Source: Panicum virgatum
Lineage: Eukaryota; Streptophyta; Magnoliopsida; Poales; Poaceae
Reading direction: 5' to 3'
Length of the DNA stretch: 64,000 nt
NCBI RefSeq assembly: GCF_016808335.1
Contig: NC_053146.1
Location: forward strand, 29,303,495 to 29,367,494
Position 1 is the stretch's first letter. Each line of letters opens with the position of its first letter. The position numbers were made by a program, and so were the translations under genes. Shown in pieces: positions 12,778 through 64,000 of the stretch. Below the pieces are notes generated by a model. That model saw nothing but the letters and a program-made list of their open reading frames with translations, made no database searches and was not told where the DNA came from.

Positions 12778-12833
12778 TTCCTGCCGAGACGAGGGAGTTC
12801 GTCCAGCGCTACCAGGACTACGAGGACTTCTAG
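12778..12833 (+). other. Putative LTR exon 3 of element D with stop codon
   Basis: Follows a pyrimidine-rich tract and CTGCTCAG. With the single G left over from exon 2 the frame reads VPAETREFVQRYQDYEDF and then TAG. The acidic, tyrosine-rich end suits the composition of exon 2. Splicing is inferred from frame agreement. Confidence 0.5.
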
Positions 12834-28439: not shown

Positions 28440-28598
28440 ATTCTGATCATCTATACGAGGGTATTTATGAGTTGGTGTCTGCGAACGAGAATGAGCCCTA
28501 GGAGTCTCAGCTGAATCTAACTGACTTGAATTTAATTGAATTGAATCAAAACCCGGACCAATGTTCGGAAGAGCCCAAGGTTAAATTTGCTCAGAAAG
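28440..28598 (+). other. Putative LTR exon 2 of element E
   Basis: 159 nt after CATATAG and before AAAG|GCAAGC. In phase 1 it reads DSDHLYEGIYELVSAN and later LNLTDLN and LNQNPDQ, matching the J and K exons at L..G.YEL and LNQ. One TAG interrupts it (NEP-stop-ES), probably from CAG. Confidence 0.55.
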
Positions 28599-30943: not shown

Positions 30944-31044
30944 GTATTACTTTTGAAGATGTGTTTGCGGGTGTAATTGCTTTACCTCCGGGTTGGTCTG
31001 TGGAGTGGGTTGTTTCCCCGACCAACACTGACTCTTCAGATTGA
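30944..31044 (+). other. Putative LTR exon 3 of element E with stop codon
   Basis: Follows TTTTCAG. Joined to the G left from exon 2 it reads GITFEDVFAGVIALPP, then GWSVEW, and ends TGA at 31042. J exon 3 has GTNFEDLF and LPPGWSVEW in the same order. In the shared LPPGWSVEW core the two DNA differences are both at third codon positions. Confidence 0.55.
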
Positions 31045-36054: not shown

Positions 36055-37979
36055 TGTGACACCTCAGGTGTCAGTACTCTTAAAGACAATCACTGTACCC
36101 TATTTGAACTTCAAAGAAAAATGTGGGAAATTAATTCAAAGAGAAGGGGTCAAATAAAAGTTAAAGTATACAAAAGAAATTAAAGGAGAAAGAAAAAGGA
36201 GTGAAAATCTACTCAAATTTTCAATTCAAAAATGTGCACAAAATTTTAGTTGGCTCATGAGAGGTACTTCAATTGACATGTGCTCAATTGAACTTCAGCC
36301 AAAAACAAATCAAAAACTGAATAAAACCAAAGCCCTTTTTTGCGCAAGTTTGAAAATTTACAAATAGTTCAAAATGTGAGTTTCAAATTAAAATTTGCAT
36401 AACACAAAAGTTGTAGATCTTGAAAAGTTATGCAAAATTGGTATTCAACACTTTTTCATTCGAGCCCTCTAAATAGGAGATATTTTTAGATTACCGAGAG
36501 GTCCCTGGATTTTCAGAAATCACAGAAAGGCCATCACCTCCATCTCTCTCTCCTCCCGGTGCTCTGTTTCGCCGCCGCCCGCCGTACGCCGCCGGAGGAC
36601 CTCGTCCACGGCGCGCTCGCGGCCAAATGGACCCGGGGAACCCCTCAAGCGCCACCTGGCCCGCCCCTTGGCACCTCCCCAGGCGCACACGCGTCCCAGA
36701 CACTCTCCCAAGCCGTCACGCCGCCCCGCCATGCGCAGCGCCGCTGGCCGCTCCGCCCGCTCGCCGTCGAGCCACCCCGGACCGAATCAGCCTCCCCCAG
36801 ACACCACTCCACTCGCCCAGGTGCTCCCTGGCCTAAAAATGCCCCCAGAGCCCCGCCGTCGCGCGACCTTCCCTTCCTTCTTCCTCCTCCCATCGTCCGC
36901 CATGGCCGGCGAGATCTAGCTCGCGTGGACCGGCCACCACAGCCCTGCATTGCTCCATCCATCCACCCCAGCAGCTTCTCCACCCTCCATTTGAACTCCA
37001 CGCGCGCGGAATCGAACCCAGTCCTTTTCCCGACGCTGTCCCCCTTCTGCGCCGCCGCCGGCGAGCTCGGGCTCACCGCGGACCGGCCAGCCCAGAGGGA
37101 GACCGAGCACGACAGCTACCCCAGGTGCATCCTCATGCTCTCGCGGTGCTCGTGCGCGCCATGTTGCTCCACCCCGAGCCCTCCTCCGCCTACAACGCCT
37201 GCGACCCGAACCTCTTCTCCGCCATTAGCGCCGGCGAGCTCACCTCCGTCCTTCTTCCACCCGAACGGCTTCAAGGGTAGGTGTTCCTCGATCTCTACTC
37301 TCCCACGCGCCTCCCCGTGGCAGCCCTGGTAAACCCTGCTTAGCAGAACACCACCGGCAAGATGCCACGGCGGAGAAGGCCGGCGAAGGGTCCGGTTGCA
37401 ATTTCTTTTTTCGCTTAAGGGTGTGTCTGCAAAAATTCTAGTGTATGGCAGTGAACTTCAAAAATGCAAAATAAATCACAGAAAAATGGTAAAAATATAA
37501 ACTCAACTGATCTGGAATCCTTGTAACAATATCTACATGTTTTGTAACAGTCAAATATGTAGAAACTCTACCAAATTTAATCTAAGAAAAAGAATAAGAA
37601 AATCGACATATGCATGTTCAGGAAGTTCTACTCAACAAATGAATTTGATTTTTGAATATTTTATCACTAATGGAATATTAAGCTCAAAGTAAAAATATGG
37701 CACCCAACCAAAACAGTTATCATGTTGGAACAATCAAGATTCTCTAATCTGTTGTTGACTTTCCTGAATTAATGCTGGAAAGCATATACATGATCTTGCT
37801 CTGTAATTTTTACTGCATGCATGTGTAGCTGAATACTTGTTAATCCATAAATTTCAGATTTATTAGAGATCATTTTCTATATACCATGTTTTATGCTTGT
37901 TTAAATAACTTAATTCATCATATATTTTTATTATACTTAGAAAAATCTATATTTATTTTTGAAGTCTCATTTTAGTTCT

Positions 37980-38600
37980 GTGTTACTGCCTATAAATATT
38001 GAGCTGCAGTTACTGAGTTTTGCTCTAGTTAAAAATCATGCTTAGCATCTCCTGGCTAGTTTTACCATTTTTGTGCTGAGTAAACTACACCATATCTGAT
38101 CTTGATTTTTGGGCATGTTCTTCTTTAGAGTATGTTCTGTCTGTAATAAAAAGTTTACATGCAGTACTGGTCAAATGAACTATGAGAAATTTATGCTAAC
38201 TCATGTTAAGTTAACTGCATAACTAATTGATCGTAATAACATAAAGCTTGATAATTTTTTTGGAGTATGTTTATCTCATGTTTAGGCTCTGTTAAAAAAT
38301 TGAGAACCATATACCTAGTATAACTCTCTGTAGATTTAATCTTAGTTAATAACTTGCTAATTTTGTTCTTTTTGTCACCTCTGCTGTATAAGTGAATAAA
38401 ATCTGGATAAATTACAGTACTGAGTAGATGCTTTGTAGATGCTTCCATAAAATTTGTAGCACAAGAAACCATGTCAAACGTTCTGTGAAAAAAGGTGAAA
38501 CAACTAGAGTAATCTACTTACATGAATAGTTATGGTAATTGCTTTATGGTTAGATGCTGAAATTTATACCATAAATGCTTAAGTTTTGATCTGTGTTACT
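37980..38600 (+). repeat. Degenerate ~150-bp periodic repeat in LTR intron 1 of J
   Basis: The TAAAATTTGAGxACCA-like phrase occurs at about 37989, 38142, 38288 and 38445 (spacing 153, 146, 157). The same array is in the 3' LTR about 9.5 kb further on. Confidence 0.55.
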
Positions 38601-38859
38601 TTAGTTTTTCATCACTAGCTCATGAGTAGTTTTGTTGTTATGAAATAATGAAAGCATGCTATGTGTTGAATTTGAAAATGAAAACCAAAACCCCCACTCA
38701 TTCATGAAGAAACATAATTGTGGTTACTACTCTATAAATGGCTGCCCATGAAATGAAATGTAAAATCATCACTAAATTAACTTTTGTTGAACTACAACTT
38801 TATCGTGAAGGAAAGAAATCGTTATCCATGAATAACTCATAATCTTGCATTGCATATAG

Positions 38860-39003
38860 AAACGGTTAATCTCGCGGACGGTGACTACGAGTTGGTGCCC
38901 GCGGACTCTCGTGTGGATCAGGAGGTCAATTTGAACTGTGCTAACTTGTCTCAAGACCTGGGCCAAGCCCCAGAGACTTTTCTGCCTGACAGTGCCCAAG
39001 AAG
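38860..39003 (+). other. Putative LTR exon 2 of J 5' LTR
   Basis: 144 nt after GCATATAG and before GAAG|GCAAGC, open in phase 1. Reads ETVNLADGDYELVPADS, then a part with LSQDLGQAPE and DSAQE. Against the 3' LTR copy there are few changes, two of them silent (GCG/GCA, GAC/GAT). Confidence 0.6.
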
Positions 39004-39975
39004 GCAAGCCCCGGTGCATTATGCCTTATTTTTTCCGAGTTATTATTCATTTATCTATTTATAATGTGTTGTAGTAGTTTCTTTCTGCATTTAAGTTTTC
39101 TAGGCGTTGATCGAAAACCTTAGATGCATGATACCTAGGTACCTATGTTTGCTACCGGGTCTTTTTATCGACTAGTTGCCATGCTAATTAGGTACGGTAG
39201 AAGTCGAGTGGTTTCCTGCCTCTCGCGAGCAAATAGGAATTTGACTGACTTTAAATCCTGCTGAAATGTAAGGACAATGGGCGGGGTTGTGTAGTTGTGA
39301 TACCCCGCTGGTGTAGTCAAAAATGGCTAAAGTCGCGGTGTGTGGCTCATTTCGTTAAGCGTTTGAAAGTACTAGCCACATACCGAGAAATATGGTAATC
39401 GGTAAGCTTAAGTACCTGATTGGACCAGCGAGTGGAACGATCTCGCACCCTCTTGGTAGAAGTAGGGTTTATATTTTTTGTCGCGACGTACGGGTGCAGA
39501 GTGGTCGGACCCTGTAGTCGGGGAGGGTGTTCTGGATCCATGGACTGGAAAGAAAGGGGAAAAGTAGCGTGGGCGGAAGCGAAGTCGATCCCCATGCATG
39601 TGGTCTAGGTTCCCCTGGCTAGGTTGAAATTCGATTCGGAATCGTCCGCCTCTCACGTCATGAGATTGCTTAAAGTTTTCGGTCACACAGAGTAACAAGT
39701 GGAACATGAGGATGATAATACTGCTGGTTGATTAAATGGTTGCTCTACCATGTTTGTATAGAGTTAGATGCAAACTTAGAATAGTTAATCCAACTGGAAG
39801 ATGGCTAATTAAAAATCTGAAAATAAGGATCAACTCTTAGTGGCGTTTTTAGCAAAACAACCCCACCAACCAAAAAGCCTTGCATGTCTAGTTATGGGAC
39901 TATGTTATATCCGGAGACGGGTCAGTCTTGCTGAGTATTAGTATACTCATCCTTGTTTGTGGCACTGTTTTTCAG

Positions 39976-40368
39976 GTACTAACTTTGAAGATCTGTTTGC
40001 TGAGAGATGGGCAGCTTCAGGAGGCTAGTGCCGAGCTCGAGAGCAGGGCTACTCTTATCGCCCAGCTCCATGGACAGGTTCACGAGCTTCAGGACATGGT
40101 GATGTATCGTGACGCTACGATCAACTTCCTAGAGGACCAGTTTCACGACCTGCAGCTTGAGTTGGACGAGGCCCAGGGGCAGCTCCACGAGATACAGCAT
40201 GCGCAGGATGCTCTTCACGCACCACCTGACGAGATGCAGGTGGACGGTGAGGAAGAGCCCCAGGAGATCGAGGGCGTTTCGGAGATGGACTCCGAGGACC
40301 AGGCGCCGCAGCCCGCACCGGTTGAGGTTCACACTCCCGCGGCGGGTGAGGCATTGGTCAACATGTAG
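39976..40368 (+). CDS. Acidic coiled-coil ORF upstream of gag in J (function unknown)
   Basis: Begins after TTTTTCAG, where the other LTRs have exon 3. The first bases still spell GTNFEDLF in the exon-3 frame. The long open frame is a neighbouring one: LQEASAELESRATLIAQLHG, then VHELQDMVMYRD, FLEDQFHDLQLELDEAQ, and an acidic end with EEEPQEIEGVSEMDSEDQ, closing at TAG 40366-40368. Leucine heptads over about 70 residues predict a coiled coil; the tail is acidic and proline-rich. The frame is open about 146 residues counting upstream of the acceptor. A small indel near 40005 may have separated it from the exon-3 frame. It could be a long form of LTR exon 3 or a separate leader ORF. No enzyme motif is seen. 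Confidence 0.5.
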   Translation, partial: VLTLKICLLRDGQLQEASAELESRATLIAQLHGQVHELQDMVMYRDATINFLEDQFHDLQLELDEAQGQLHEIQHAQDALHAPPDEMQVDGEEEPQEIEGVSEMDSEDQAPQPAPVEVHTPAAGEALVNM

Positions 40369-41024: not shown

Positions 41025-42560
41025 ATGGTTGGATCAACTCGAGGCACCCCTAGTGGTTTTGGAGCCGGGGGGAATGGCGATCCACCTCCACCTCCTCCAC
41101 CAGTGGGTATCGCTGAGGTTCTTGCCGCCCAGACGGAAATTTTGCGGCAGTTGGTTCAAGCTCAGCATCAACCGCGGGGTGGGCATCATGCTCATCAAGC
41201 ACAAGAAGCGAGCTACCAAGATTTCCTCAGTACTCAGCCTCCACTGTTCAATCAAGCGGATGAGCCTCTGGACGCGGATGCTTGGATTCGCACAATCGAG
41301 TCCAAGTTTTCTCTATTGACTACTCCTTGTTCTGAAGCGAATAAGACTCGCTACGCCGCGCAGCAGCTTCGTGGATCAGCTCGTATGTGGTGGGATCATT
41401 ACCACGGGATGCTACCGGCTGATCATGTGGTGAATTGGAATGAGTTCAAAATGGCTTTTTGGGATAATCATATTCCAGCTGGACTTCTTGACTGTAAGCT
41501 CAACGAGTTCTTGGCTTTAACTTAGGGCACTCGTACTGTGGTGCAGTATGCCCAAGTATTCAATCAATTGAGTCAATATGCTGGACATCACGCGGATACC
41601 GACGCTAAGAAGCGTGAACGCTTCTGTCAAGGCCTTAGCACCAAGTTACAAGAAAGGCTAAATCTTGTCCGTGCGGACTCTTTCAATGGATTGGTGAATA
41701 TGGCTATCTCTCAGGAGGATCTTATTTCTGCACACCACGCTGAAAAGAAGCGCAAGGCACCTGCTGGACCCTCGAGTGCCTCTGCACCGAGGTATCGCAT
41801 TGTGCAGAATAACCCACCCGCACCCTCTCAGAAGGCCCCTCAGCCAGGGCGTTGGATTATTCGGCCTCCTCAACAGCAGCAGCAGACTCGAATCGGGTTT
41901 TCTCAGCAAGCTCGATTTGCACCTCAGCAGCAGCAGAACGGCCCAAGGCCGAATACTCAGCAATGCGCTCGTCCTGACAACAATAACCGCTATTTCAAAT
42001 GCGGGAGTCCGGATCAATTTGCCAAGATGTGCCCCCAGGCGGGACAATCTCAAGGGCAGGCTTTTCGCAGAAATGATCAGAACAAGGGCAAGAGGCAAAC
42101 CATTCAAGTCAGGCAGGGCCGACTTAACTTCACCAGCCTTGCTGACCTTCCTGAGGGAGCACCAATTATGTCGGGTACATTCTCTATAAACCATCACCCC
42201 ATAGTTATCTTATTCAATTCTGGTGCATCTCATAGCTTCATTAGTTCTAAATTCGGAGCAAGGGTTGGGTTAGATTTTTGTCACACGAAAGGGTCATTCA
42301 TGATATCTACTCCGGGTGGTAAAGTCGCATCAAACCAAATCGTTCATAATGTGCCACTTAGTTTGGGTACTAAAACCGTTCCTACCACTTTAATCTTGTT
42401 GCCACTAGAAGGTATGGACATTATTCTGGGAATGGATTGGATAAAAAGACATGGGGTATTGTTAGATATCTCTTCCCGAGCCGTTGAAATAAATTCTCCA
42501 ACTCATGGTCATTTGGTTCTATTTTTACCTCATCATCAATGCAACAACTTTTGTGCCTAT
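41025..42560 (+). pseudogene. Element J gag and protease (broken)
   Basis: Start ATG at 41025 (MVGSTRGTPSGFGAGG), chosen because it follows an acceptor-like site and matches the gag frame. A run of seven prolines, then LAAQTEILRQLVQAQ and the gag core with ARMWWDHYHGM and WNEFKMAFWDNHIP. A TAG at 41523 probably replaces CAG before [14 protein letters not shown] glutamine-rich linker leads to a damaged zinc knuckle, [14 protein letters not shown], with Tyr at the first Cys and Gln at the His. The protease has [11 protein letters not shown], Asn in place of the catalytic Asp, and [11 protein letters not shown]. Confidence 0.92.
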
Positions 42561-43960
42561 GCCATGAAAGATATTCATCTCGAAGATATTCCGGTAGTCC
42601 GTGAATATGCAGATGTATTCCCGGACGATTTACCTGGTATGCTGCCAGACCGGGATATCGAATTTGTCATTGAACTTCAGCCTGGTACAGCACCTATTTC
42701 AAAAAGGCCGTACCGAATGCCGCCTAAAGAATTAGCTGAACTAAAAACCCAGCTGCAAGAACTTCTGGACAAGGGTTTTATTCGCCCAAGTGCTTCACCT
42801 TGGGGCTGTCCAGCATTGTTCGTAAAGAAAAAGGATGATATACTGAGGTTGTGTGTTGACTACCAGCCTCTCAATGCGGTGACCATAAAAAATAAATATC
42901 CACTTCCCCGCATTGATGTACTGTTTGATCAGTTAGCTGGAGCAAAGATCTTCTCCAAGATTGATCTTCGTTCGGGGTACCATCAAATTAAAATCCGGCC
43001 TTGTGATATTCCCAAGACCGCTTTCTCAACCAGATATGGTCTCTATGAATATTTGGTTATGTCTTTCGGTCTCACCAATGCGCCAGCTTATTTCATGTAC
43101 CTCATGAACTCGGTATTCATGCCGGAACTTGACAAGTTTGTCGTGGTTTTTATTGACAACATTCTGATCTATTCCAAGAACGAGGCGGAACATGAGCAAC
43201 ACCTGCGAATTGTTCTTCAACGTCTCAGAGATCATAAGCTGTACGGAAAATTCTCCAAGTGTGAATTCTGGCTGGACACAGTCAAATTTCTGGGTCACAC
43301 TATATCCAGTGAAGGCATCTCAGTTGATCCCAGCAAAGTACAAGAAGTGATGGACTGGAAACCTCCTACTTCAGTTCATCAGATTCGCAGTTTTCTCGGC
43401 TTGGCGGGGTATTACCGCAGATTTATTCCGGACTTCTCCAGAATTGCAAAACCCATGACAGAACTACTAAGGAAGGATGTCAAGTTTAAATGGGATGCGA
43501 AGTGTGATGAAGCATTCCATACGTTGAGAGCACATCTCACCACAGCACTAGTCTTGGCTCAACCTGACAACAATAAACCCTACGATGTTTATTGTGATGC
43601 TTCAGGTACTGGTCTTGGTTGTGTTCTAATGCAAGACAATCGAGTTATAGCATATGCTTCCCGAGCTCTTCGGCCACACGAGCTAAATTATCCCACTCAT
43701 GATCTCGAACTAGCCGCCATTATTCACGCTCTCAAGATTTGGAGACATTATCTTATGGGCACTCATTGCAATATCTATACCGACCATAAGAGTCTCAAAT
43801 ACATTTTCACTCAAAGTGAGCTAAATATGAGGTAACGAAGATGGCTGCAATTAATCAAAGATTATGACCTGGAAGTTCATTATCATCCGGGCAAAGCCAA
43901 TGTCGTAGCTGATGCGCTCAGTTGTAAGGTTCACTGCAATTGCCTTTCAGTGGAGTCATA
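42561..43960 (+). pseudogene. Element J reverse transcriptase and RNase H (inactive)
   Basis: RT motifs in order: [60 protein letters not shown]. The catalytic loop reads FIDNIL where E has FIDDIL, so the second metal-binding Asp is Asn. Then [11 protein letters not shown] and [13 protein letters not shown]. RNase [30 protein letters not shown] and [15 protein letters not shown] at 43833 probably replaces [16 protein letters not shown] follows in frame. Confidence 0.93.
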
Positions 43961-45563
43961 TAATGACACATTGTGTGCTGAAATGCAAAAGCTGAAATTG
44001 GAAATCATTCCTCAGGGCTCTTTGAATCATATTTTGGTGGAACCAACACTTTATGACAAGGTCATCATGGCACAATTACATGACAAAAGTGTTGGTATCA
44101 TCAAGCAGAAAGCAGTAGAAGGTGAAAATAAATACAAGTGTTTCCGAGTGGACCATAAAGGAATTTTGTGGTTCGAAGATCGCCTAGTCATTCCCAAAGA
44201 TCATGAGCTGCGGAAACAAATCCTGGACGAAGCACATCTCTCTAAATTTTCCATTCATCCGGGTAGCACCAAGATGTACCAAGATCTCAGACAAAATTTC
44301 TGGTCGACTCGCATGAAGAGAGAGATTGCCAAATATGTCGCAGAGTGTGACACATGTCAGAGAGTGAAAGCTAGTCACTTGAAAGTTGCTGGAACTCTCC
44401 AACCTCTGTCAATTCTGTCTTGGAAATGGGAAGATATCAGCATGGATTTCATCGTGGGCTTACCAAATACCTCTCAACATCATGATTCCATTTGGGTCAT
44501 TGTCGACAGGCTCACAAAGACCGCTCATTTTATTCCAGTGCATACTGAATATCGAGCCAAGAAATATGCTGAAATCTATATCGATAGGATTGTCTGTCTA
44601 CATGGTATACCGAAAACTATTATCTCGGATCGTGGTCCTCAGTTTGTGGCAAGGTTTTGGGAGCAGCTCCAAGAGGCTCTCGGAACCAAATTAATTCGAA
44701 GCTCGGCTTACCATCCATAGACTGACGAACAGACCGAAAGAGTGAATTAAATTCTTGAGGATATGCTTCGAGCATGTGTCATCCATTATGACAAGAACTG
44801 GGACAAATGTTTATCCTTGGCTGAGTTTTCTTACAACAATAGCTATCAAGCCAGTCTGAAGATGGCACCATTCGAGGCCTTGTATGGTCGACGGTGTCGA
44901 ACTCCTTTGAGTTGGTCCCAGACTGGAGAACATCAAATATTTGGACCCGAATTAGTGGTCGAGGCTGAGGAAAAAGTAAAAATAGTACAAGCAAATCTCC
45001 GAGCAGCCCAGTCTCGGCAAAAGAGTTATTTTGATAAAAGAAGAGATCCTTTGAAGTTCATGGTTGGTGACCATGTTTATTTACGAGTATCACCAACTAG
45101 AGGCGTTCAACGTTTCGGAGTCAAGGGTAAGCTAGCACCTCGCTATGTCGGGCCATACGAAATCATTGAAGAATGTGGACTCGTGGCTTATCGTTTGCGA
45201 CTTCCTTCACGACTTGCTGCCATCCATAATGTTTTTCACATATCCCAACTCAAGAAATGTGTTCGAGTTCCTACGGAAATCATCGATCAACAAGAAATTC
45301 AAGTGGAGCCCGATCTCTCATATACCGGATATCCACTTAGAATTCTGGATCAAAAAGAGAGAGGTACTCATCGAAAGGTGGTAAAAATGTATAAAATTCA
45401 GTGGCCTCATCACACTGAAGAAGAAGCCACCTGGGAGACGGAAGTTTATCTTAATCGGCATTATCCGGGTTTTCTTAGCTCCACCTCAGGTATATCACTT
45501 CCCTACCTAATTTCAATCATCCAATATCGGGGCGAGATTCTTTTTAAGGGGGGTAGGCTGTGA
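43961..45563 (+). pseudogene. Element J integrase and chromodomain (broken)
   Basis: Zinc-binding part from HLSKFSIHPG to CDTCQ (44235-44360). Core: ISMDFIVGL, IISDRGPQF and the glutamate in QTERVN. Stops at 44718 (TAG in YHPQ) and 44748 (TAA in RVNQ) sit next to that glutamate and both probably come from glutamine codons. The frame from 44763 is open: FEALYGRRCRTPLSW, VGDHVYLRVSP, GPYEIIEECG, VFHISQLKKCV. The chromodomain is KVVKMYKIQWPHH and EEEATWETEVYLNRHYPGF (about 45380-45475). It ends at 45563, overlapping the first bases of the 3' LTR. Confidence 0.93.
45544..45558 (+). other. Polypurine tract of element J
   Basis: TTAAGGGGGGTAGGC ends at the LTR start. The same place in E reads AAGGGGATAGGC. 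Confidence 0.75.
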
Positions 45564-46334
45564 CACCTCAGGTGTCAGTACTCTTAAAGACAATCACTAT
45601 ACCCTATTTGAACTTCAAAGAAAAATGTGGGAAATTAATTCAAAGAGAAGGGGTCAAATAAAAGTCAAAGTATACAAAAGAAATTAAAGGAGAAAGAAAA
45701 AGGAGTGAAAAGCTACTCAAATTTTCAATTCAAAAATGTGCACAAAATTTTAGTTGGCTCATGAGAGGTACTTCAATTGACATGTGGTCAATTGAATTTC
45801 AGCCAAAAACAAATCAAAAACTGAATAAAACCAACGCCCTTTTGTGCAAGTTTGCAAATTTACAAATAGTTCAAAATGTGAGGTTCAAATGAAAATTTGC
45901 ATAACACAAAAGTTGTAGATCTTGAAAAGTTATTCAAAATTGGTATTCAACACTTTTTCATTTGAGCCCTCTAAATAGGAGATATTTTTTGATTACCGAG
46001 AGGTCCCTCGATTTTAAGAAATCACAGAAAGGTCCTCATCTCCGTCTCTATCTCCTCCCGGTGCTCTGTTTCGCCGCCGCCCGCCGTACACCGCCGGTGG
46101 ACCTCGTCCACGGCGCGCCCGCGGCCAAATGGACCCGGGGAACCCCTCTAGCGCCACCTGGCCGCCCCTTGGCACCTCCAAACGCGCACACGTGTCCCAG
46201 ACGCTCTCCCGAGCCGCCACGGCGCCCCGCCATGCGCAGCGCCGCTGGCCGCTCCGCCCGCTCGCCGTCGAGCCACCCCGGACCGAATCAGCCTCCCCCA
46301 GACACCACTCCACTCGCCCAGGTGCTCTCTGGCC

Positions 46335-46342
46335 TATAAATA
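46335..46342 (+). promoter_or_regulatory. TATA box of J 3' LTR
   Basis: TATAAATA in GGCCTATAAATACCCCC. The 5' LTR copy is mutated. Confidence 0.7.
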
Positions 46343-48359
46343 CCCCCAGAGCCCCGCCGTCGCGCGACCTTCCCTTCCTTCTTCCACCTCCCGCCGTCCG
46401 CCATGGCCGGCGAGATCTAGCTCGCGCGGACCGGGCACCACAGCCCTACATTGCTCCATCCATCCACCCCAGCAGCTTCTCCACCCTCCATTTGAGCTCC
46501 ACGCGCGCAGAATCGAACCCAATATTTTTCCCGATGCCGTCCCCCTTCTGCGCCGCCGCCGGCGAGCTCAGGCTCACCGCGGACCGACCAGCCCAGAGGG
46601 ATACCGAGCACGACAGCTACCCCAGACGCATCCTCACGCTCTCGCGGTGCTCGTGCACGCCACGTTCCTCCACCCCGAGCCCTCCTCCGCCTACAACGCC
46701 GGCGACCCGAACCTCTTCTCCGCCATTAGCGCCGGCGAGCTCACCTCCGACCTTCTTCCACCCGAACGGCTTCAAGGGTAGGTGTTCCTCGATCTCTACT
46801 CTCCCACGCGCCTCCCCGTGGCAGCCCCGGTAAGCCCTGCTTAGCAGAACACCACCGGCAAGATGCCATGGCGGAGAAGACCGGTGAAGGGCCCGGTTGT
46901 AATTTCTTTTTTCACTTAAGGGTGTGTCTGCAAAAATTCTAGTGTATGGCAGTGAACTTCAAAAATGCAAAGCAAATCATAGAAAAATTGTAAAAATGTA
47001 AACTCAACTGATCTGGAATCCTTGTAACAATATATACAAGTTTTGTAACAGTCAGATATGCAGAAACTCTTCCAAATTTAATCTAAGAAAAAGAATAAGA
47101 AAATCGACCTATGCATGTTCAGGAAGTTCTACTCAACAAATGAACTTGATTTTTGAATATGTTATCACTAATGGAATATTAAGCTCAAAGTAAAAATATG
47201 GCACCCAACCAAAATAGTTATCATGTTGGAACAATCAAGATTATATAATCTGTTGTTGACTTTCCTGAATTAATGCTGGAAAACATATACATGATCTTGC
47301 TCTGTAATCTTTACTTCATGCATGTGTAGCAGAATCCTTGTTAATCCATAAATTTCAGATTTATTAGAGTTCATTTGCTATATACCATGTTTTATGCTTG
47401 TTTAATTAACTTAATTCATCATGTATATTTATTGTGCTCATAAAAATCTATATTTATTTCTGAAGTCTCATTTTAGTTCTGTGTTCCTACCTATAAATTT
47501 TGAGCTGCATTTACTGAGTTTTGCTCTAGTTAAAAATCATTCTTAGCATCTCATGGCTAGTTTTACCATTTTTGTGCTGAGTAAACTACACCATATCTGA
47601 TCTTGATTTTTGGACATGTTCTTGTTTAGAGTATCTTCTGTCTGTAATAAAAAGTTCACATGCAGTACTGGTCAAATGAACTGTGAGAAATTTATGCTAA
47701 CTCATATTAAGTTAACTGCATAACTAATTTATTGTAATAATATAAAGCTTGATAATTTTTCTGGAGTATGTTTATCTCATGTTTAGGCTCTGGTAAAAAT
47801 TTGAGAACCATATACCTAGTATAACTCTCTGTAGATTTAATCTTATTTAATAACTTGCTAATTTTGTTCTTTTTGTCACCTCTGCTGTATAAGTGAATAA
47901 AATCTGGATAATTACAGTACTGAGTAGATGCTTTGTAGATGCTCCCATAAAATTTGTAGCACCAGAAACCATGTCAAACATTCTGTGCAAAAAGGTGAAG
48001 CAACTAGAGTAATCTACTTACATGAATAGTTATGGTAATTGCTTTATGGTTAGATGCTGAAATTTATACCATAAATGCTTAAGTTTTGATCTGTGTTACT
48101 TTATTTTTTCATCACTAGCTCATGAGTACTTTTGTTGTTATGAAATAATGAAAGCATGCTATGTGTTGAATTTGAAAATGAAAACCAAAACCCCCACTCA
48201 TTCATGAAGAAACATAATTGTGGTTACTACTCTATAAATGACTGCCCATGAAATGAAATGTGAAATCATCACTAAATTAACTTTTGTTGAACTACAACTT
48301 TATCGTGAAGGAAAGAAATCGTTATCCATGAATAACTCATAATCTTGCATTGCATATAG

Positions 48360-48503
48360 AAACGGTTAATCTCGCAGATGGTGACTACGAGTTGGTGCCC
48401 GCGGACTCTCGTGTGGATCAGGAGGTCAATTTGAACTGTGCTAACTTGTCTCAAGACCTGGGCCAAGCCCCAGAGGCTTTTCTGCCTGACAGTGCCCAAG
48501 AAG
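48360..48503 (+). other. Putative LTR exon 2 of J 3' LTR
   Basis: 144 nt, same borders and frame as 38860-39003, open. The leftover G joins exon 3 in frame. Confidence 0.6.
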
Positions 48504-49474
48504 GCAAGCCCCGGTGCATTATGCCTTATTTTTCCGAGTTATTATTCATTTATCTATTTATAATGTGTTGTAGTAGTTTCTTTCTGCATTTAAGTTTTCT
48601 AGGCGTTGATCGAAAACCTTAGATGCATGATACCTAGGTACCTATGTTTGCTACCGGGTCTTTTTATCGACTAGTTGCCATGCTAATTAGGTATGGTAGA
48701 AGTCGAGTGGTTTCCTGCCTCTCGCAAGCAAATAGGAATTTGACTGACTTTAAATCCTGCTGAAATGTAAGGACAATGAGCGGGGTTGTGTAGTTGTGAT
48801 ACCCCGCTGGTGTAGTCAAAATGGCTAAGGTCACGGTGTGTGGCTCATTTCGTTAAGCATTTAAAAGTACTAGCCACATACCGAGAAATATGGTAATCGG
48901 TAAGCTTAAGTACCTGATTGGACCAGCGAGTGGAATGATCTCGCACCCTCTTGGTAGAAGTAGGGTTTATATTTTTTGTCGCGACGTACGGGTGCAGAGT
49001 GGTCGGACTCTGTAGTCGGGGAGGGTGTTCCGGATCCACGGACTGGAAAGAAAGGGGGAAAAGTAGCGTGGGCAGAAGCGAAGTCGATCCCCATGCGTGT
49101 GCTCTAGGTTCCCCTGGCCAGGTTGAAATTCGATTCGAAATCGTCCGCCTCTCACGGCATGAGATTGCTTAAAGTTTTCGGTCACACAGAGTAACAAGTG
49201 GAACATGAGGATGATAATACTGCTGGTTGATTAAATGGTGGCTCTACCATGTTTGTATAGAGTTAGATGCAAACTTAGAATAGTTAATCCAACTGGAAGA
49301 TGGCTAATTAAAAATCTGAAAATAAGGATCAACTCTTAGTGGCGTTTTTGGCAAAACAACCCCACCAACCAAAAAGCCATGCATGTCTAGTTATGGGACT
49401 ATGTTATATCCGGAGACGGGTCAGTCTTGCTGAGTATTAGTATACTCAGCCTTGCTTGTGGCACTGTTTTTCAG

Positions 49475-49590
49475 GTACAAACTTCGAGGATCTGTTTACA
49501 AGTCTTACTTGGCCGTGTACCTTGCCTCCGGGTTGGTCTGTTGAGTGGGATGGCCCTTCAGCTGGTGCTGACCACCCTCCCGCTGAGTGA
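49475..49590 (+). other. Putative LTR exon 3 of J 3' LTR with stop codon
   Basis: After TTTTTCAG. With the G from exon 2 it reads GTNFEDLFTSLTWPC, then TLPPGWSVEWDGP, and ends TGA at 49588. The motif order matches E exon 3. Confidence 0.6.
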
Positions 49591-51244
49591 CTCTTTCGTA
49601 CGGGCTTTATCGATGCGTCACGTTAATTCGCTAGTTATCTTTTAATGCTTCCGCTGAACAATGAGACTTGAATAATTTGAGTAGATGGAACTCTGTAGTA
49701 CTTTACTATTCTGAACCTGGTTTGTAATAAATTTTCCTTTCCGCTGCAATCACTCTGAGATGTAGGAAATGTTCTGTGTTGTAATCTCTGGGCTCACCTT
49801 CGTGTGAGTGTTGTCTGCTGATCCTGGAATAGCGTGGCTTTAATCGAGGCTTCACTCGAGGAACTACCGGTGAGTGCCAATTTGGGTCAGAGTTGCTTAG
49901 CAACAAAGATCAGTGCTCCCGGGCCTAGTAGTTTTGGGTGGTTCCACCACACTTTCCCCGACCTCTCTTGCGTGTAATCCACGAAGACCCATCGAACCCC
50001 ATCGTCGCCGCCTAACCCTAGCACCACCGTGCCGAGTCCGCTTGCCATGGATACGCTGCGGCCCTAGACTGCCAGGATCCGCACGCATGCGTGCGCCACC
50101 CTCGCCAAGGCTCCGCCTTGCGATTCCTCGCACAATTCGAACCCCGGACGCCGCCCTTTGGCGCGCTCTAACAAGCTCCGCGTGCGCGCGGGAACGTAAG
50201 CAGGAGACCAAGGTTGGGCCTTTTCCCCGCCTTGGCCAATGGCCGGGCCGACCTACGCCACCATCGCCGCCGTTTGCCCCGTCTCCGCCGTTGCCACGGG
50301 TCTGCTTCGCCGGCCCCGCCCGCGTGCGCGAGGCACGCTACACGGCCAATGGCCAGACTTTTTTTGGCCTAAGCACACGGCCAAGCCTCGCTGCCGGCAT
50401 GCCGTGGCAGCGCTGTTGCCGCACCGCGCACGGTCACCACCGCGGCATCGCGCGTGTCGTGCCCCAGCCACCACACATGCACGCACGCACAAGAAGCTTG
50501 CCGTACTGGATCGAGAGGAGGCCGCACCGGATCCAATCGCCACTGATGGGCGGGAACCACAAGACAGAGAGGGGAGAACGACATCGACATGTGGGCCCAA
50601 GATGTCAGTGAGAGGAAGGGAGAAGAAAAAGAAAAAGAGGAAGAAGGAAATCGGGCCGAAGCCGAGCCAGCCCGTCAAGCCGATAAGCCGTCAAGCTGAC
50701 CTGAGCCGGCCCAAGCCAAGGATAGCTAGACCGCGAGCCAACCCAAGCCGTGGATTGATGGGCTGCGAGCCGGCCTGAAGCCGTTTTGGCCCACGAGCAC
50801 AATCGCATATTTCTTTTTCCCTTTATTTTTCCACGCGCTGACACATGGGACCCACAGGTCAGTGACATGCTGACGCCGACATGTGGGCACTTTGACCATT
50901 GACCAGTCAATGTTGACCGGTTGATGCTGACGTCAGCAGACCCGAGCCCCTGGCTGACGTCATGCTGACATCAGCATGCCATGTGGCATGCCCAGAGCCT
51001 GCCACATGTCACTTATTTTCTTTTTAATTTCCGAAAATCCTTTTATTAATTTCAAAAATCCTTTTTGACTTCAAAAATTCATAATAAATCCAATCTAACT
51101 CCAAAAATTATCAAACCAGCTTCACAATTTTTCTAAAAACATGATCTACATGTTAGAATAGGTTTTGAGTTCTATTTGGTCTTATTTGAGAAGTTTGTGC
51201 ATATTCGCACTTTGGCCCCTATACTTATATGTAATTACAAATAG

Positions 51245-51316
51245 TACCCGCTGCCGAGGAGCTAACCGAGGACCAGGAGCACCAGGAGGCCCAGGAGTTC
51301 TTTAAAGAACGACCAG
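51245..51316 (+). other. Putative LTR exon 2 of element I
   Basis: 72 nt after ACAAATAG and before CCAG|GTTCAC, open in phase 1: VPAAEELTEDQEHQEAQEFF and then KERP. Acidic and glutamine-rich like D exon 2, but not clearly alignable. Confidence 0.5.
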
Positions 51317-52503: not shown

Positions 52504-52628
52504 GGCAAGATGTCGGATTCGAGGAGGAGTTCGACACCAACGATGACGGCTGGTACCATTGTGGCTCGGACTACGCTCAAGTCTGCTTGTGGGGAAGGAG
52601 TCCCAAAGATGGAGGCCCAGAAGACTAA
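52504..52628 (+). other. Putative LTR exon 3 of element I with stop codon
   Basis: After GGATAGCAG. With the G of exon 2 it reads GQDVGFEEEFDTNDDGWYHC, then GSDYAQVCLWGRSPKDGG and PED before TAA. Acidic and aromatic. Confidence 0.5.
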
Positions 52629-57000: not shown

Positions 57001-57150
57001 AGGCTACCAATCTGTCCGACGGAGTGTACGAATTAAGTCCTACCAGCGATACTGTTGTTGAGGGGTGTTCTTTGAATTTGACTGAGTTGAACCAAGACCT
57101 GGACCAACGTCCGAAAGAGCCCAAGGCTGTCAGTGATAGTGCCCAGGAAG
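57001..57150 (+). other. Putative LTR exon 2 of K (element H)
   Basis: 150 nt after CATATAG and before GAAG|GCAAGC, open in phase 1. Reads EATNLSDGVYELSPTSD, later LNLTELNQDLDQ and DSAQE, aligning with J exon 2 (NLADGDYEL, LSQDLGQ, DSAQE). Its exon 3 would lie beyond the right edge. Confidence 0.6.
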
Positions 57151-57445
57151 GCAAGCCCCGGTGCATCAATCACATTATTTTTGCGCATATTTAAATCTAA
57201 CTATTCAATATATGTTGTAATATTTTTATTTGCACATTTATGTTCTTAGGAGTTGGTTGAAACCCTAGTTGCATGATCCTAGGTTCCTATGTAGTGTTAC
57301 CCCGGGTCACTTCGACTAGTTGCCCCGCTAACTAGGAACGATAGAACCACACTGGTTTCTTGCCTCTCGCGAGATTATAGGAGTTGACTGACTTTACTTA
57401 CCGTTGCAATATAAGGTCAATGGGCGGGGTTGTGTAGTTGTGATA

Positions 57446-58565
57446 TGATGAATCTCGTTCCCGATCTTCACGACGTAGGATCTTGAATAAGATAACTAGC
57501 TGAAATCTCAGCCAAGGTAACTAGCTACAAGCAGCCGGGTAACTAGTGCAACCTGACGACACGCACAAGGAGCCAACCACTGTCTCTACACGGCAGGCTG
57601 AACCAAGGATTTGCCCAATCACACTCTCAAAGAACCAACCTACGCAGCCTGCATATGAAGTAGCAGGAGCACGGATTGGGTGCTGATGAAGCGGCCGCTT
57701 CTGTAATTCCAAGGGAAATCACAAGAGCAAAGGGTAGAGATCACTCTCTAAATTTATTAGCACACAGCTGAACAAAGGGGTTCTATTTCATTATCAAAGT
57801 CCTCATCATTCTCTGAGATACATGTGTTATTTATACAAGGAACAACCCTCCTTGTTGGGTGTAAATGACTCTTGGAGTTTATGGAGTTATGGTAACTCAA
57901 AAGTCACCACGAACTGAAAACTCGAGGAGCCTCGTGTGGCTGTTGGTCTTCTGTGCAGTTTCCACTAAATCGGCCATAACTCCTTATTAGGAAGTTCAAA
58001 TGACATGAGGTTTGTTGCGTAGGAAAGCTAATGTGATAATCTTTCCAACCATGTGCAGCATGAATCACGAAACATTGTACAGTGGTACAGTTTTGTATGG
58101 AAAATTGAACATCTGCCAGACTGTTGACATTCTAACCAGTCTTCACTAAAGAACTCAGATCTCATTACTGGATAATCAAAAGTACTCGGCAAGTATACCA
58201 TTGGAAAGTAGACTTGATAAGTTTCCAAAATGTCCTCATTGACCATTATAGCTTTTGGGAATCAAGAGTTATGACTGATTCTTTAGGACTGTTCTGCAGC
58301 ACTGGTCAGGTTCGAGTGTGGTCCTTCTGTGTTCTTGTCATCCTCCTTGGTGAACCTGAATAATAGCAATGTGCACGACTTAGAAAGTATATAATTCTCA
58401 TTAATATTAAAATGAATTTCACAAAGTAGCGTGTTCACCTCTTGTTGTAGTTTCTTAGCTCGGCTACATGTAATTGGTCCAATGTTCACTTGTTCTCTTG
58501 CTTAGTTGACATCTTCCACATCATGTGCTTGATTTACATCTGGTTTAGTTGAGATGGCCTCATCA
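57446..58565 (-). repeat. 3' LTR of element L
   Basis: 1120 bp, direct copy of 62508-63646. It contains the end of the long ORF (stop at 58502) and a TATAAATAA box on minus (57827-57835). Confidence 0.9.
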
Positions 58566-59182
58566 TCCTCCCCCTCTTGAAAAGGAGTCATCCTCGACTC
58601 AGATTCTTCCAAGCCAATGTATGGTGTTAGATCAGCAACATTGAATGTTGTGCTAACACCATAGTCATCATCTTGGTTGTTGAAATCATCATTGTAGCTG
58701 AAGTAAAACTTTGGAGTTGTAGTTGTATTTATTTCTTCGAGTATAGCAAGGTGCTTTAACCTGTAATCATACAAACCAAGTAGTAGACTTGCTAAAGAAA
58801 AACAATAATATTTGGAGTTCAATATAGCTTTCACCTTATATGAACATTCAATATTGAGAGTATTTGTTGAAATCCTTGAGATGGTCTTATCATCCTCCCT
58901 CCCTTGAAGAAAAGCCGCCCTCAGCTTTTGTTGATCTGAAACCAATCTATAAAAAGCACAGGGTGTATATATACAACAATTTCCATGATAAATCATTTCA
59001 GCTTCCTCATTTCTTCCTTTGTAATCCATATCCATGTGTTGACATTGATAACATGGTGCATATGTGTTATGCACTTTATTAGGATGAGCTTGAAACAACA
59101 TGGTTGATGGGAGAACAATAATTTCATTCAAACAACACAATTGATTCAAAATTTCAGATTTCATCATTGCAACATTGAACAT
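58502..59182 (-). pseudogene. Element L ORF, last segment with integrase-tail motif
   Basis: Continues the frame of the middle segment after a one-base shift near 59184. It begins FNVAMMKSEILNQLCCLNE, goes through a region I do not recognise with CYQCQHMDMDY and a glutamine- and leucine-rich part, and ends FNVADLTPYIGLEES, then MTPFQEGEDDEAI. That last motif is the usual C-terminal end of grass gypsy polyproteins, where the purine tract codes for QEGEDDE. The stop lies inside the LTR. Only this tail of pol is kept. Confidence 0.7.
58566..58578 (-). other. Polypurine tract of element L
   Basis: Minus-strand AAGAGGGGGAGGA immediately before the TGATGAGG start of the 3' LTR. Confidence 0.85.
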
Positions 59183-59183
59183 T

Positions 59184-60586
59184 TCAAAATTTAGCGATGG
59201 AGTTGTTATTCATCATATTCAACTTAAAATCAACAAGGTTGTCACATGTTATGCACATCGCATATACCAATAACTTATCAACAACATATTCAACAATCAA
59301 ATTGAATGTAAACTTGCAGCTATGAGCATTGTTCAAAGATCTCATGGATGTTATCATAGAAATATTCTCAAGCATTTCATTAATATCAACAGGTTTATCA
59401 AGCATGGTGTAACACAAACATTCAGTAGGAGATATCTTTGCAAATAATTTAGCTTGAGTAATCAATTGAATATGATGAAGTTTATTGGCATGTAAATCAT
59501 CACAATGATCAATCAAAATATGACAAGAATTATGCATGCTAGAACAATGGGTTTTATTTTGCAAAATTTCAGCACTTGACTTGACTTGTGAATGAATTGA
59601 ATCAGCACAACGATTTCGAGTAACTATAGAAGATGTTTCATCATAATTACTCACCATGTGTTCTCGAAAATTTAGATCTGAATTATTTTCATTACCTTCT
59701 AGTTTTGGTGATTGTACATTAGATTGCACTTCTGAATTTTTACCTCCATCTCCTTTGAGCTTCATGATTGTGGCAGTAACAAATTGATTTTGGACATCGG
59801 CAATCTTCTCACTTCTCTGATCAAGTGGTGTGGTGTGATGAGCAAACATCTCTTGCTCAATGTCCTTGCAAATTTGCACACTTTGAGAGACAACACTAGA
59901 AGTAGAGATTAGTGGGTTAGTATTAAAATCATCCTTACATGCTTTGCAATAAAGCACTTTCACTTTGTGTGGTGTTTCTCTCACACTCATATTATTGATG
60001 GTCTCAACTTCACATTTGGTGGAATCACACATCTCACTTTTATTTTCAGTCACACTCAATTTGGCTATGTGGCTCTCATTTTCACATGGGTTTTGAGGCA
60101 CAATATCTTCAACTTCTTGTGGAGCAACATATGAATAGATGCCTTCATTCATGGTCTTTCTCAACGGCATTGGGACAGCAATAATTGCATCAATATAGTC
60201 ATCTTTCACCTTCTCAAAAGACACTAAACTTGCTTCGGAAGAAGTGGAATCATATGTGTTATTCTTGCCTTCAAACTGAACTTCTTGAGGCATGTTAGAG
60301 CACAAACTTCCAGCACAACTGTCCAACAATTCATCACAAGTGACAGCTGATGGCTCAACACATCTTGGCACTTTGTTCAAGCTTGGAACAATATTAGCTT
60401 GTAACTGCAAATCCGTTGAAGCATGATGAAGTTCATCTTGGACAGATTTCTCACTTGGATGAGGTTGCATAATAGAAATGTTTTTCTTCTCACATTCAGC
60501 TCTCAAATTGACACTTTGGTTAGCCTTCAAATTCAGATTCGATGCACAATCTGAAGTGCTATCAATTTCTTGATCACATATTGGTT
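59184..60586 (-). pseudogene. Element L middle ORF (no recognised family)
   Basis: Open from just after the gag stop (TLEPICDQEIDSTSDCAS) for about 465 residues to 59184. Rich in Ser, Asn, Cys, Glu and Lys, with scattered Cys (CKACKDDFN, HCSSMHNSCH). I see no DTG protease motif, no RT or integrase motifs, and no membrane segment. The gag frame ends TAG-offset by one base near 60590 and the next frame shift is at 59184, so gag, this part and the tail probably once formed a single frame of roughly 1,000 residues. Base composition is like its neighbours. It may be decayed pol beyond recognition or acquired sequence; the openness over 1.4 kb speaks against simple decay. Confidence 0.5.
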
Positions 60587-61570
60587 CTAAAGTCTAACCA
60601 TGTTGTAGAGAAAAATTTTGGACAGTTTGGAGCATACATCTTCACCACATTTATCACTAGCACAAGGCACAAGACTTGTCAATTCTACAACACTTGAGTT
60701 CAGGCATGGTGATTGTGCTTCTTGCTGAATAATTTTCAGATTTTTGTGATGTGAAACTGCAGCATGTTCCTTCAACTCCTCTGTGGCATGTGCAGCAGAA
60801 CTTTCTTCTTGATCTTGCTTATTATTTCTCTCATAAACTTGAGGCATAAATCTATCTTCTTGCTGCTCAACAAAAATCATTTTGGAGTTGCATTGTTTAT
60901 GTTCTCTTCTTTTAGCACTAGAATCAACTAATGGAAGTTTTGGGACAGCATGTCCTCTCTTCTTGCATGGACTTGATGATGACTTCTCTCCAACAACAGA
61001 GGATATATCTGAATGTAGCTTTGCACAGAAGTCTTGGCTCAAATTAATGCGCCTTGTGATCTTGTCTTGCTGCATCTTCAAAATTTTCTTCTCTTCTCTA
61101 ATTGCCCAACTTAGAAGATCTTGCAAACTTCTAAAATACTTTCCCTCAAGTGCAGTAGCAATGTCATCATTAAGACCCCTCTCAAAGCATTCCATTGCAT
61201 TCACGTCATCAACAATATTTGCACTATGCAAGGAAGAATATAGCTTATCATAATATACTTGGATAGATTTACTACCTTGCTTCACATTCTCCAAACAACG
61301 AAGGAAAATCAGCCTATATTTTCTTGAAACAAATTCTTTTCTCATTGTCTTCTTCAGATCTTTCCAATTCTTGATGAAACGCTTCTGTGGATATTGCTTC
61401 CACCAATCAAGAGCATAATCTTCAAACTCAAGTACAGCTTGTTGTATCTTCTTTGATTCTGAAAATCCTTGAACTTCAAGTTCAATCTCCATTTTCTCTT
61501 GCCAATCAAGAAACTCTTCCGGATTAGTACTTCCATAGAATGGAAGATTGGTGTATCTCCGGCCTGCCAT
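60587..61570 (-). CDS. Element L gag (328 residues, open)
   Basis: Starts MAGRRYTNLPFYGSTNPEEF at 61570, just below the leader. Gag core: FLDWQEKMEIELEVQGFSE, ALDWWKQYPQKR, TMRKEFVSRKYR and GSKSIQVYYDKL, then ECFERGLNDDIATAL and a basic stretch, the usual gypsy gag (Retrotrans_gag) pattern. The zinc knuckle is missing: only HKQCNSK remains where relatives have GHxxxxCPNK. The last 100 residues are serine- and histidine-rich. It forms the particle protein in active relatives; here it is open but probably truncated by a frame change near 60590. Confidence 0.8.
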   Translation of the reverse strand: MAGRRYTNLPFYGSTNPEEFLDWQEKMEIELEVQGFSESKKIQQAVLEFEDYALDWWKQYPQKRFIKNWKDLKKTMRKEFVSRKYRLIFLRCLENVKQGSKSIQVYYDKLYSSLHSANIVDDVNAMECFERGLNDDIATALEGKYFRSLQDLLSWAIREEKKILKMQQDKITRRINLSQDFCAKLHSDISSVVGEKSSSSPCKKRGHAVPKLPLVDSSAKRREHKQCNSKMIFVEQQEDRFMPQVYERNNKQDQEESSAAHATEELKEHAAVSHHKNLKIIQQEAQSPCLNSSVVELTSLVPCASDKCGEDVCSKLSKIFLYNMVRL

Positions 61571-62493
61571 GGTTAATGTATATGCAACAACAAGCTTATA
61601 TGTTGTATAGGATAATATGTGGAACTCTCACAAACTCACCTTCTCTTACCAACTAAAGCTCTTATGTTTCCGACAGATCACAGAAGTAATCCGTGTGGTG
61701 GTAAAGAGTAGTGATAACTGAGCGAATACAAAATCAAGCAAACCATACATGATGGTTTTTATGTGGAGCTCGGTAAGGGTGATACACAAGGGGCAATCTG
61801 AATTCTAGTTGTTGTAAAGTTAAATAGCAGTCCAAACTAGAGATCCAATGTCTAGTGCTGATCACAAGATATGAGTGATGTAAAGGATGCAACACACGCA
61901 CAAAAGAAATTTCAGACTTGATGCAAACAAGGATTATGCTAGGGATGGATGATTCACAAGGAATCTCCTAGCAAAAATTGCACCAAAGGAAGATAGCAAA
62001 CTCGTTACACAACTTGATATGAAAATTCAGCACTTGTGCATACCAACACTCTGATCTCCCTTCTTTCTTTTCCAACTTTCTCAGCACAACAATTTTTTCT
62101 TTGCTGCAACTTTTCTTTCCTCTTTTTTTTGACTCTTTTTTTAACAATACTAAGACAAGATCAGATATAGTACTTGCAAAAATTAAAGGTAGAAAGTTAT
62201 GCAACCAGCAGCTATATATGTTGATAGGATAAAAGTTTATGCAAAGGATAGAATTGGTTTACTCTGTTTTTGTGGGAATTTTTTCAGAGATATGAAAGGC
62301 ACAAAAGGACACGCAAAGGATGATATGATCAGCAACTAAACAAAGACTCTAATGGACTGAAACTTAACCAAACTCACTAGATAAACAGATTGAGATAAAA
62401 GGCTATGACAGAATTTTTTTTGGCTTTATGGTGGATAGGACGAAGACAAAAATATATGTAGCTAAGGGTAAAGAATCCTACCGTGGCAACGCA
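61571..62493 (-). other. Leader of element L
   Basis: Untranslated region between primer site and gag, 0.92 kb. Purine-rich on minus near 62040-62150. No gene supported. Confidence 0.65.
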
Positions 62494-62505
62494 GCTCTGA
62501 TACCA
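62494..62505 (-). other. Primer binding site of element L (tRNA-Met)
   Basis: Minus-strand TGGTATCAGAGC, the standard match to the initiator tRNA-Met end, two bases from the 5' LTR. Confidence 0.9.
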
Positions 62506-62507
62506 AA

Positions 62508-63646
62508 TGATGAATCTCGGTCCCGATCTTCACGACGTAGGATCTTGAACAAGATAACTAGTTGAAATCTCAGCCAAGGTAACTAGCTGCAAGCAGCCGG
62601 GTAACTAGTGCAACCTGACGACACGCACAAGGAGCCAACCACCGTCTCTATACATCAGGCTGAACCAAGGATTCGCCCAATCACACTCTCAAAGAACCAA
62701 CCTACGCAGCCTGCACATGAAGTAGCAGAGCACAGATTGGGTGCCGATGAAGCGGCCACTTGTGTAATTCCAAGGGAATCACAAGAGCAAAGGGGTAGAG
62801 ATCACTCTCTGAATTTGTTAGCACATAGTTGAACAAAAGGGGTTCTATTTCATTATCAAAGTCCTCATCATTCTCTAAGATACATGGGTTATTTATACAA
62901 GGAACAACCCTTCTTGTTGGGTGTAAATGACTCTTGGAGTTTCTGGAGTTATGGTAACTCAAAAGTCACCACGAACTGAAAACTCGAGGAGCCGCTCGTG
63001 GCTGTTGGTCTTCTGTGCAGTCTCCACGAAATCGGCCATAACTCCTTATTGGGAAGTCCAAATGACATGAGGTTTGTTGCGTTGGAAAGCTAACGTGATA
63101 AGCTTTCCAACCATGTGTAACATGAATCGCGAAACATTATATAGTGGTATATTTTTGTATGGGAAGTTGAACATCTGCCAGACTGTTGACATTCTGACCA
63201 GTCTTCACTAATGTACTCAGATCTCATTACTGGATAATCAAAAGTACTCAGCAAGTATTCCATTGGAAAGTAGGCTTGATAATCTTTCCAAAATGGCCTC
63301 ATTGACCATTATAGCTTTTGGGAATCAAGAGTTATGACTGATTCTTTCGGACTGTTCTCCAGCACTGGTCAGGTTCGAGTGTGGTCCTTCTCTGTAATCT
63401 TCTCCTTTTGTGTTCTTGTCATCCTCCTTGGTGAACCTGAGTAATAGCAATGTGCATAACTTAGGCAGTATATAATTCTCATTAATATTAAAATGAATTT
63501 CACAAAGTAGCACGTTCACCTCTTGTTGTAGTTTCTTAGCTCGGCTACGTGTAATTGGTCCAGTGTTCACTTGTTCTCTTGCTTGGTTGACATCTTCCAC
63601 ATCATGTGCTTGATTTACATCTGGTCTAGTTGAGATGGCCTCATCA
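62508..63646 (-). repeat. 5' LTR of element L
   Basis: 1139 bp, copy of 57446-58565, with a few small insertions relative to it (e.g. near 63395-63405). Ends TCATCA next to the TGAAA flank. Confidence 0.9.
62889..62897 (-). promoter_or_regulatory. TATA box of L 5' LTR
   Basis: Minus-strand TATAAATAA, conserved with 57827-57835. Confidence 0.6.
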
Positions 63647-64000
63647 TGAAACCCCATCGGTATAGTGGAGATTAGTTAAGGTCGTGGTGTGTGGCACATT
63701 CTGTTAAGGTTTTGAAAGTACTAGCCACATGCCGAGAAATATGGTAATCAGTAAGCTTAAGTACTTGATTGGACCAGCGAGTGGAACGACCCTGCACTCT
63801 CTTGTGGACTTGGTCCAGATTGAACGCAACATGCGGTTGCAGAGTAGCCGTACTCTGTAGTCGAGGGGAGTGCCCCGGATCTACGGACTGGAAAGAAAGG
63901 GGAAAAGTCATGTGGGTGGCGTAATTCCCCATACGTGTGTGTTAGGTTTGCCTTGCAAGGTTCAAAAACTCTATTAGAATCATCCACCTCTCATGGTTTG
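63647..64000 (+). repeat. LTR K (3' LTR of H), second part, cut by window end
   Basis: Resumes at CCCCATCGGTATAGT after L and matches intron 2 of the J LTR, including the well-kept block CCGAGAAATATGGTAATC (about 63733-63751). Exon 3 and the LTR end are outside the window. Confidence 0.85.

Follow-up and report, generated by a model that had tools for sequence, protein, structure and literature searches.

Within the long terminal repeats (LTRs) of one type of chromovirus, represented here by the elements J, E, and K, and possibly in those of the family D/B, we found what we judge, with a probability of about 0.55, to be a small spliced accessory gene with a GC-AG intron, lying between the TATA box and the poly(A) signal of the LTR. 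That the J/E/K-type LTRs hold a real, unusual coding feature of some kind seems to us somewhat likelier than that they do not. Coding by exon 2 of D/B is plausible, and for the LTR-like region I chance is the likeliest reading.

The window, that is, the whole stretch of 64,000 nucleotides of Panicum virgatum DNA that was analyzed, is crowded with nested Ty3-type elements, as recognized by self-comparison, end motifs, and Pfam matches. Element J has protease, RT, RNase H, and integrase in Ty3/gypsy order (Pfam matches in 41526-43832 and 43836-44717), followed by a chromodomain match that is subthreshold (PF00385, 19.8 bits, E value of 7.5e-4, under the cutoff of 25.1 bits). The 5' LTR of J stops at 39998, after FEDLF, and lacks approximately 455 bases that correspond to the end of the 3' LTR and contain the poly(A)-like signal. 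The 3' LTR of element E ends near 31369 and carries an insertion at ~29190-30580, and the LTR of element K is split at 57445-63647 by another element. The D LTR occupies 9614-13091 with no adjoining internal region of its own family, and we suspect it to be a solo LTR; B is of the same family and lies on the minus strand. I is a single region with one copy in the window.

The preliminary description of this DNA had listed an open island, taken as exon 2, in each of six LTRs. All six islands were found at the claimed places and with the claimed lengths (75, 90, 159, 72, 144, and 150 nt in B, D, E, I, J, and K), each preceded by AG and followed by GC or GT, and J, E, K, D, and B have the GC donor in common, at the same phase. 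Openness, also claimed for all of them, fails for E, whose island carries an in-frame TAG, so five of the six are open. Nor can the island pattern serve as evidence by itself. When the rule was applied to J 47000-49952 (AG, an open multiple of three of 72 to 160 nt, GC or GT), 29 of 160 AG starts qualified, and 100 dinucleotide shuffles of the same region gave a mean of 19.9 with a range of 7 to 36, which places the observed frequency within chance.

Features of the LTRs and of the predicted spliced frame in the window
Feature	Position	Strand	Description	Basis or remark
Element J 5' LTR	36055-39998	+	3' end lost	Self-comparison
Exon 2 of J 5' LTR, 144 nt	38860-39003	+	Open	1 amino acid differs from 3' LTR copy
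Exon 3 of J 5' LTR	39976-39998	+	Ends after FEDLF	Truncation of that LTR
Element J 3' LTR, 4,394 bp	45559-49952	+	Starts TGTGACACC after polypurine run, ends CCACCACA	Self-comparison, sequence, ends
Presumed TATA box of J	46334-46342	+	CTATAAATA; CTAAAAATG in J 5' LTR	Aligned counterparts in E (26232) and K (55261)
J exon 2, 144 nt	48360-48503	+	Donor AAG/GCAAGC (GC type)	Crossed by homologues P0072, P0080, P0121, P0122
J intron 2	48504-49474	+	GC-AG	Missing at homologous place in four database proteins
J exon 3	49475-49590	+	GTNFEDLF...LPPGWSVEW...PPAE stop	
Presumed poly(A)-like signal of J	49723-49731	+	TGTAATAAA	133 bases after J stop
E exon 2, 159 nt	28440-28598	+	GC donor	In-frame TAG at 28499-28501
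E exon 3	30944-31044	+	LPPGWSVEW, then 10 residues, TGA	TGTAATAA at 31143
K exon 2, 150 nt	57001-57150	+	Open, GC donor	
D exon 2, 90 nt	11642-11731	+	Donor AAG/GCAAGT	
D putative exon 3	12778-12833	+	TGTAATAA at 12940	One copy
B exon 2, 75 nt	783-857	-	GC donor	Family of D
I putative exon 2, 72 nt	51245-51316	+	GT donor	One copy
I putative exon 3	52504-52628	+	Stop TAA; TGTAATAA at 52711	One copy

The splice itself is indicated by four database proteins, P0072, P0080, P0121, and P0122, which run from ...AQE through G into.TFED or.NFED and switch from exon 2 to exon 3 precisely where the GC-AG junction is predicted, as a cDNA would. Over exons 2 and 3, the joined J prediction shares 97% identity with P0121, 50% with P0072, and 48% with P0080; the joined proteins of J type and of P0072 type, ~50% identical, have the same product ends. 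The joined J prediction as the query gave 149 matches among 319 candidates, the best 120 of which were listed, and a profile of exons 2 and 3 gave 840 matches among 942 candidates, again with the best 120 listed. Most of the listed matches that have exon 2 read straight from it into the intron (e.g., ...AQEGKPR...). All four joined proteins are JGI entries from contigs not marked as RNA or DNA, one of them representing 2 contigs and another 3. Among the matches listed, joined forms account for 4 of the 16 JGI entries with exon 2 and for 0 of the 192 other entries (190 from ENA and 2 labeled src; P value of 2.4e-5). To obtain these counts, the 237 distinct proteins listed were sorted by pattern, and 29 were excluded (those with exon 1 or exon 3 only, those left unsorted, and one missorted exon 3 entry, P0081). 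The restriction of joined forms to JGI entries fits the presence of RNA contigs among the JGI data.

A query combining D and I gave 179 matches, and the best 120, which were listed, all have the D-type exon 2. All of them run into the intron, with no joined D-type relative (0/120) and no I motif (0/120) among these listed matches. Scans of viral_contigs for further DNA copies gave no relative. A 27-base pattern used against genome_contigs found two loci in bacterial metagenome-assembled genomes (L001 and L002), which we presume to be chance hits and set aside.

The second line of evidence is the reading frame. In nucleotide alignments made blind to codons, the independent clear gaps within exons measure 15 and 6 nt (exon 2 of J/E/K), 9 nt (exon 3), and 12 and 3 nt (exon 2 of D/B), all five being multiples of three. 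Outside the exons, 7 of 66 gaps are multiples of three in pairwise comparisons, where a gap common to several pairs was counted once per pair and alignment ends were included. The claim that indels within a family keep the frame is thus upheld by the clear exon gaps (5/5), a sixth gap of 46 nt, which runs from the end of exon 3 across the stop, being left out; with it, five of six are multiples of three.

Codon positions gave a similar signal in some of the pairs. The third-position excess of J-K exon 2 (0.149) was reached by none of 240 flanking windows, although it barely exceeds the best of them (0.141); that of D-B exon 2 was equaled or exceeded by 2 of 464, and that of J-E exon 3 (first 72 nt from 49477) by 1 of 523, and since the flanking windows overlap, these counts are not probabilities. 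The excess is absent in exon 2 of J-E and K-E, values at least as high being reached in 106 of 240 and 73 of 222 windows. By the Nei-Gojobori method, dN and dS in exon 2 are 0.53 and 1.70 for J-K, 0.62 and 1.44 for J-E (from a protein alignment that is poor at its end), 0.41 and 0.92 for E-K, and 0.18 and 3.0 for D-B; for exon 3 of J-E they are 0.42 and 2.0, a value that takes in one codon past the stop of E. Hence dN is below dS in all five pairs, over only 23 to 46 codons, with dS near saturation and no intron control.

As DNA, the islands are not better conserved than their surroundings; it is the frame that is kept. Identity between J and E in exon 2 is 0.50-0.58. It is 0.70-0.72 immediately 5' and 0.66-0.80 immediately 3' of the exon and reaches 0.90 farther into intron 2, and values as low as those of exon 2 are found elsewhere (0.51-0.58 in some intron 2 windows and 0.35-0.67 over most of intron 1). 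Exon 3 of J and E, at 0.60-0.69, lies beside 0.92 upstream, and the core of exon 2 in D-B, at 0.72, compares with 0.60-0.98 in intron 2. As the exons are not the best-conserved DNA, the argument is that of a kept frame together with proteins that cross the junction.

Exon 3 behaves as had been described. The leftover G and island 3 stay open to a stop in J, E, D, and I, which are the four families where exon 3 is readable, because island 3 of B and K lies outside the window or past an insertion. LPPGWSVEW is common to J and E, with silent differences only. The sequence TGTAATAA follows the stop by 83 to 133 bases in all four of J, E, D, and I; in the window it was counted nine times on the plus strand and never on the minus strand. 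By their motifs we take CTATAAATA to be a TATA box and TGTAATAAA to be a poly(A)-like signal. Splicing had been proposed for three families. For J/E/K the proposal is sustained by the four junction-crossing proteins and the frame-keeping gaps; for D/B, the coding-like change of exon 2 between D and B stands, and splicing in D, with no joined form among its listed relatives, is not supported; nor is it in I.

At the upstream end, the proposed junction of exons 1 and 2 found no support: the joined proteins that reach upstream (P0072, P0080, and P0121) all keep the final part of what was proposed as intron 1, while P0122 begins within exon 2. An in-frame stop lies 2 to 15 codons upstream of exon 2 in all seven window copies (J twice, E, K, D, B, and I), none of which has an in-frame ATG between the last stop and exon 2, so that either an upstream exon or a non-ATG start is needed. 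The GC-rich stretch after the TATA box (46366-46780) has an open frame common to a number of database entries. We considered this frame, which precedes the GTAGGT of J (intron from 46778), as a candidate for exon 1. The ATG of the frame, at 46534, is replaced by ACG in the J 5' LTR, and beyond the TATA box the region aligns poorly across E, J, and K; since the ATG is not kept, the frame was not accepted as exon 1. A scan for an ATG with a phase-1 donor, for which we assumed donor weights, gave no candidate common to J, E, and K.

The predicted product is acidic, as the preliminary description had said, with 16 D/E against 1 K/R in the 85 amino acids of the joined J prediction, 15 against 2 in the 48 of D, and 19 against 4 in the 65 of I. 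In Pfam it has no match over the cutoff (best, 12.4 bits versus 30.5 bits), and a sequence search of PDB gave no convincing match. An AlphaFold model of P0121 from an alignment of four sequences has a mean pLDDT of 46.3 and a pTM of 0.18, with no confident fold. A WW domain, which the start LPPGW recalls, was rejected, as the alignment to Salvador WW chains covers no more than 10 residues (E value of 0.13) and Pfam has no WW match. FEDLF and FEDMF may resemble acidic activation or FxDxF motifs.

If there is such a gene, islands 2 and 3 would be joined by removal of the GC-AG intron, a step supported by the evidence above, to give an acidic segment of ~85 residues that ends soon after LPPGWSVEW. 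Transcription would begin near the conserved TATA box and end after TGTAATAA, which, if so, puts the gene in the R region. RNA running unspliced into gag-pol would then be the genome and spliced RNA the message. A GC donor is usually weak, which would suit partial splicing. The start codon might be supplied by an upstream exon through a CATATAG acceptor, a step so far unsupported, and the product may be a disordered regulatory protein with a role in expression of the element itself or in export of its RNA, like Tat, Rev, and CERV. A further-reaching version, which we regard as tentative and rather doubtful, would make every LTR a self-contained gene with promoter, exons, and poly(A) signal in R: solo LTRs could make a regulator acting in trans, weak GC-AG splicing would pick between message and genome, and the intron would carry signals that only the genome requires.

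Other readings accept the splice and deny the gene. Intron 2 may be spliced from a long 5' leader of the gag-pol RNA, the exons being leader and the frame at most a regulatory upstream open reading frame (ORF). The missing start codon upstream of exon 2 in all seven copies would then be no surprise, nor would the want of a conserved exon 1 or an exon 2 conserved no better than its surroundings. A leader, however, does not call for gaps that keep the frame, for silent changes in LPPGWSVEW, or for product ends shared between J-type and P0072-type proteins that are only ~50% identical, and we consider this reading unlikely. It is also conceivable, though improbable, that the joined proteins derive from copies in genomic DNA from which intron 2 has been lost, e.g., through copying of spliced RNA, and so record past splicing of some copies and no working gene. 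In keeping with this, each of the four either retains sequence from upstream or begins within exon 2, no contig is marked as RNA, and two of the proteins represent more than one contig (2 and 3). Their occurrence in JGI entries alone (four of four, with none among the 190 ENA entries) argues against it, and an exact loss at GC-AG ends would require splicing even so.

Very unlikely, in our judgment, is that open islands in LTR DNA were simply picked post hoc and no splicing takes place. Shuffled sequence yields such islands about as often, most of the database matches are LTR DNA read straight through, and family I has no support, all of which would be expected by chance; the proteins that cross the junction exactly and the lengths of the gaps would be left unexplained. 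The spliced accessory gene in the J/E/K-type LTRs is the reading we prefer.

MMTV sag and HIV nef are accessory proteins coded wholly or partly in LTR sequence; they belong to animal retroviruses, and we liken them to the present frame without sequence comparison. In plants, the introns of Ogre and EVADE concern gag-pol and are not known to involve an LTR gene. According to a 2025 review, plant elements are generally without introns, Ogre and EVADE being the exceptions (PMC12786077). These two resemble the present case as plant LTR elements with partly spliced RNA. The additional ORFs of plant LTR retrotransposons (aORFs or eORFs) are placed in the internal region, on either side of gag-pol (PMC7264820 and PMC6317226). 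What they share with the present frame is coding capacity beyond gag-pol in plant LTR elements, fast change, and unknown function. Unlike them, the present frame is spliced, and its exons 2 and 3 are both within the LTR (45559-49952); joined, these amount to ~85 codons, compared with the unbroken frames of at least 250 codons counted in the 2019 eORF survey (PMC6317226).

The nearest experimental parallel, by its splicing scheme and without sequence comparison, is CERV, a protein made from a spliced mRNA of the Caenorhabditis elegans Ty3-type element Cer1, the unspliced RNA being the genome (PMC10309623). CERV has been shown there to act in the export of genomic RNA, whereas a role of the LTR protein here can only be proposed. 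We found no recognizable description of a spliced ORF inside plant LTRs in the literature searched, which left out most subscription papers and all bioRxiv preprints. If our reading is true, LTRs counted as noncoding regulatory DNA, even solo ones, contain a gene for a protein, and this gene is present in a great number of copies; accessory genes controlled by splicing, known from retroviruses and Cer1, would exist also inside plant chromovirus LTRs; and surveys limited to the internal region and to long uninterrupted frames would miss such a gene.

We also looked at the RNA structure of intron 2 and its surroundings. A stem in intron 2, GTGTGTGGC..GCCACAT, is kept in J (48850-48885) and K (near 63690-63730), and in E (near 28930-28970) it reads GTGTGTGGT..ACCACAT, a change on both sides judged by eye in the alignment. 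Shuffle z-scores for structured RNA in intron 2 disagree among the copies (J, -3.19; E, 0.51; K, -0.65; D, 0.27; B, -0.70), and Rfam has no match in the window at the gathering threshold. A few tens of bases 5' of exon 3 there is a hairpin-like repeat, TGAGTAT..ATACTCA, in J (49429-49446) and E (near 30908), with a counterpart, TGAGTAC..GTACTCA, in D (near 12707-12727); fold z-scores are -2.44 for J, -1.47 for E, and -1.32 for D, whose best fold does not use the repeat. Finally, the block ACTACTCYATAAATGACTGCCCA is strongly kept ~110 to 130 bases before exon 2 (J 48225-48247, E near 28295, and K near 56855). It contains a TATA-like sequence at 48231 (CTCTATAAATGACTGCCCA, the same in E and CATA in K), and one guess is that this is a second TATA box or start site.
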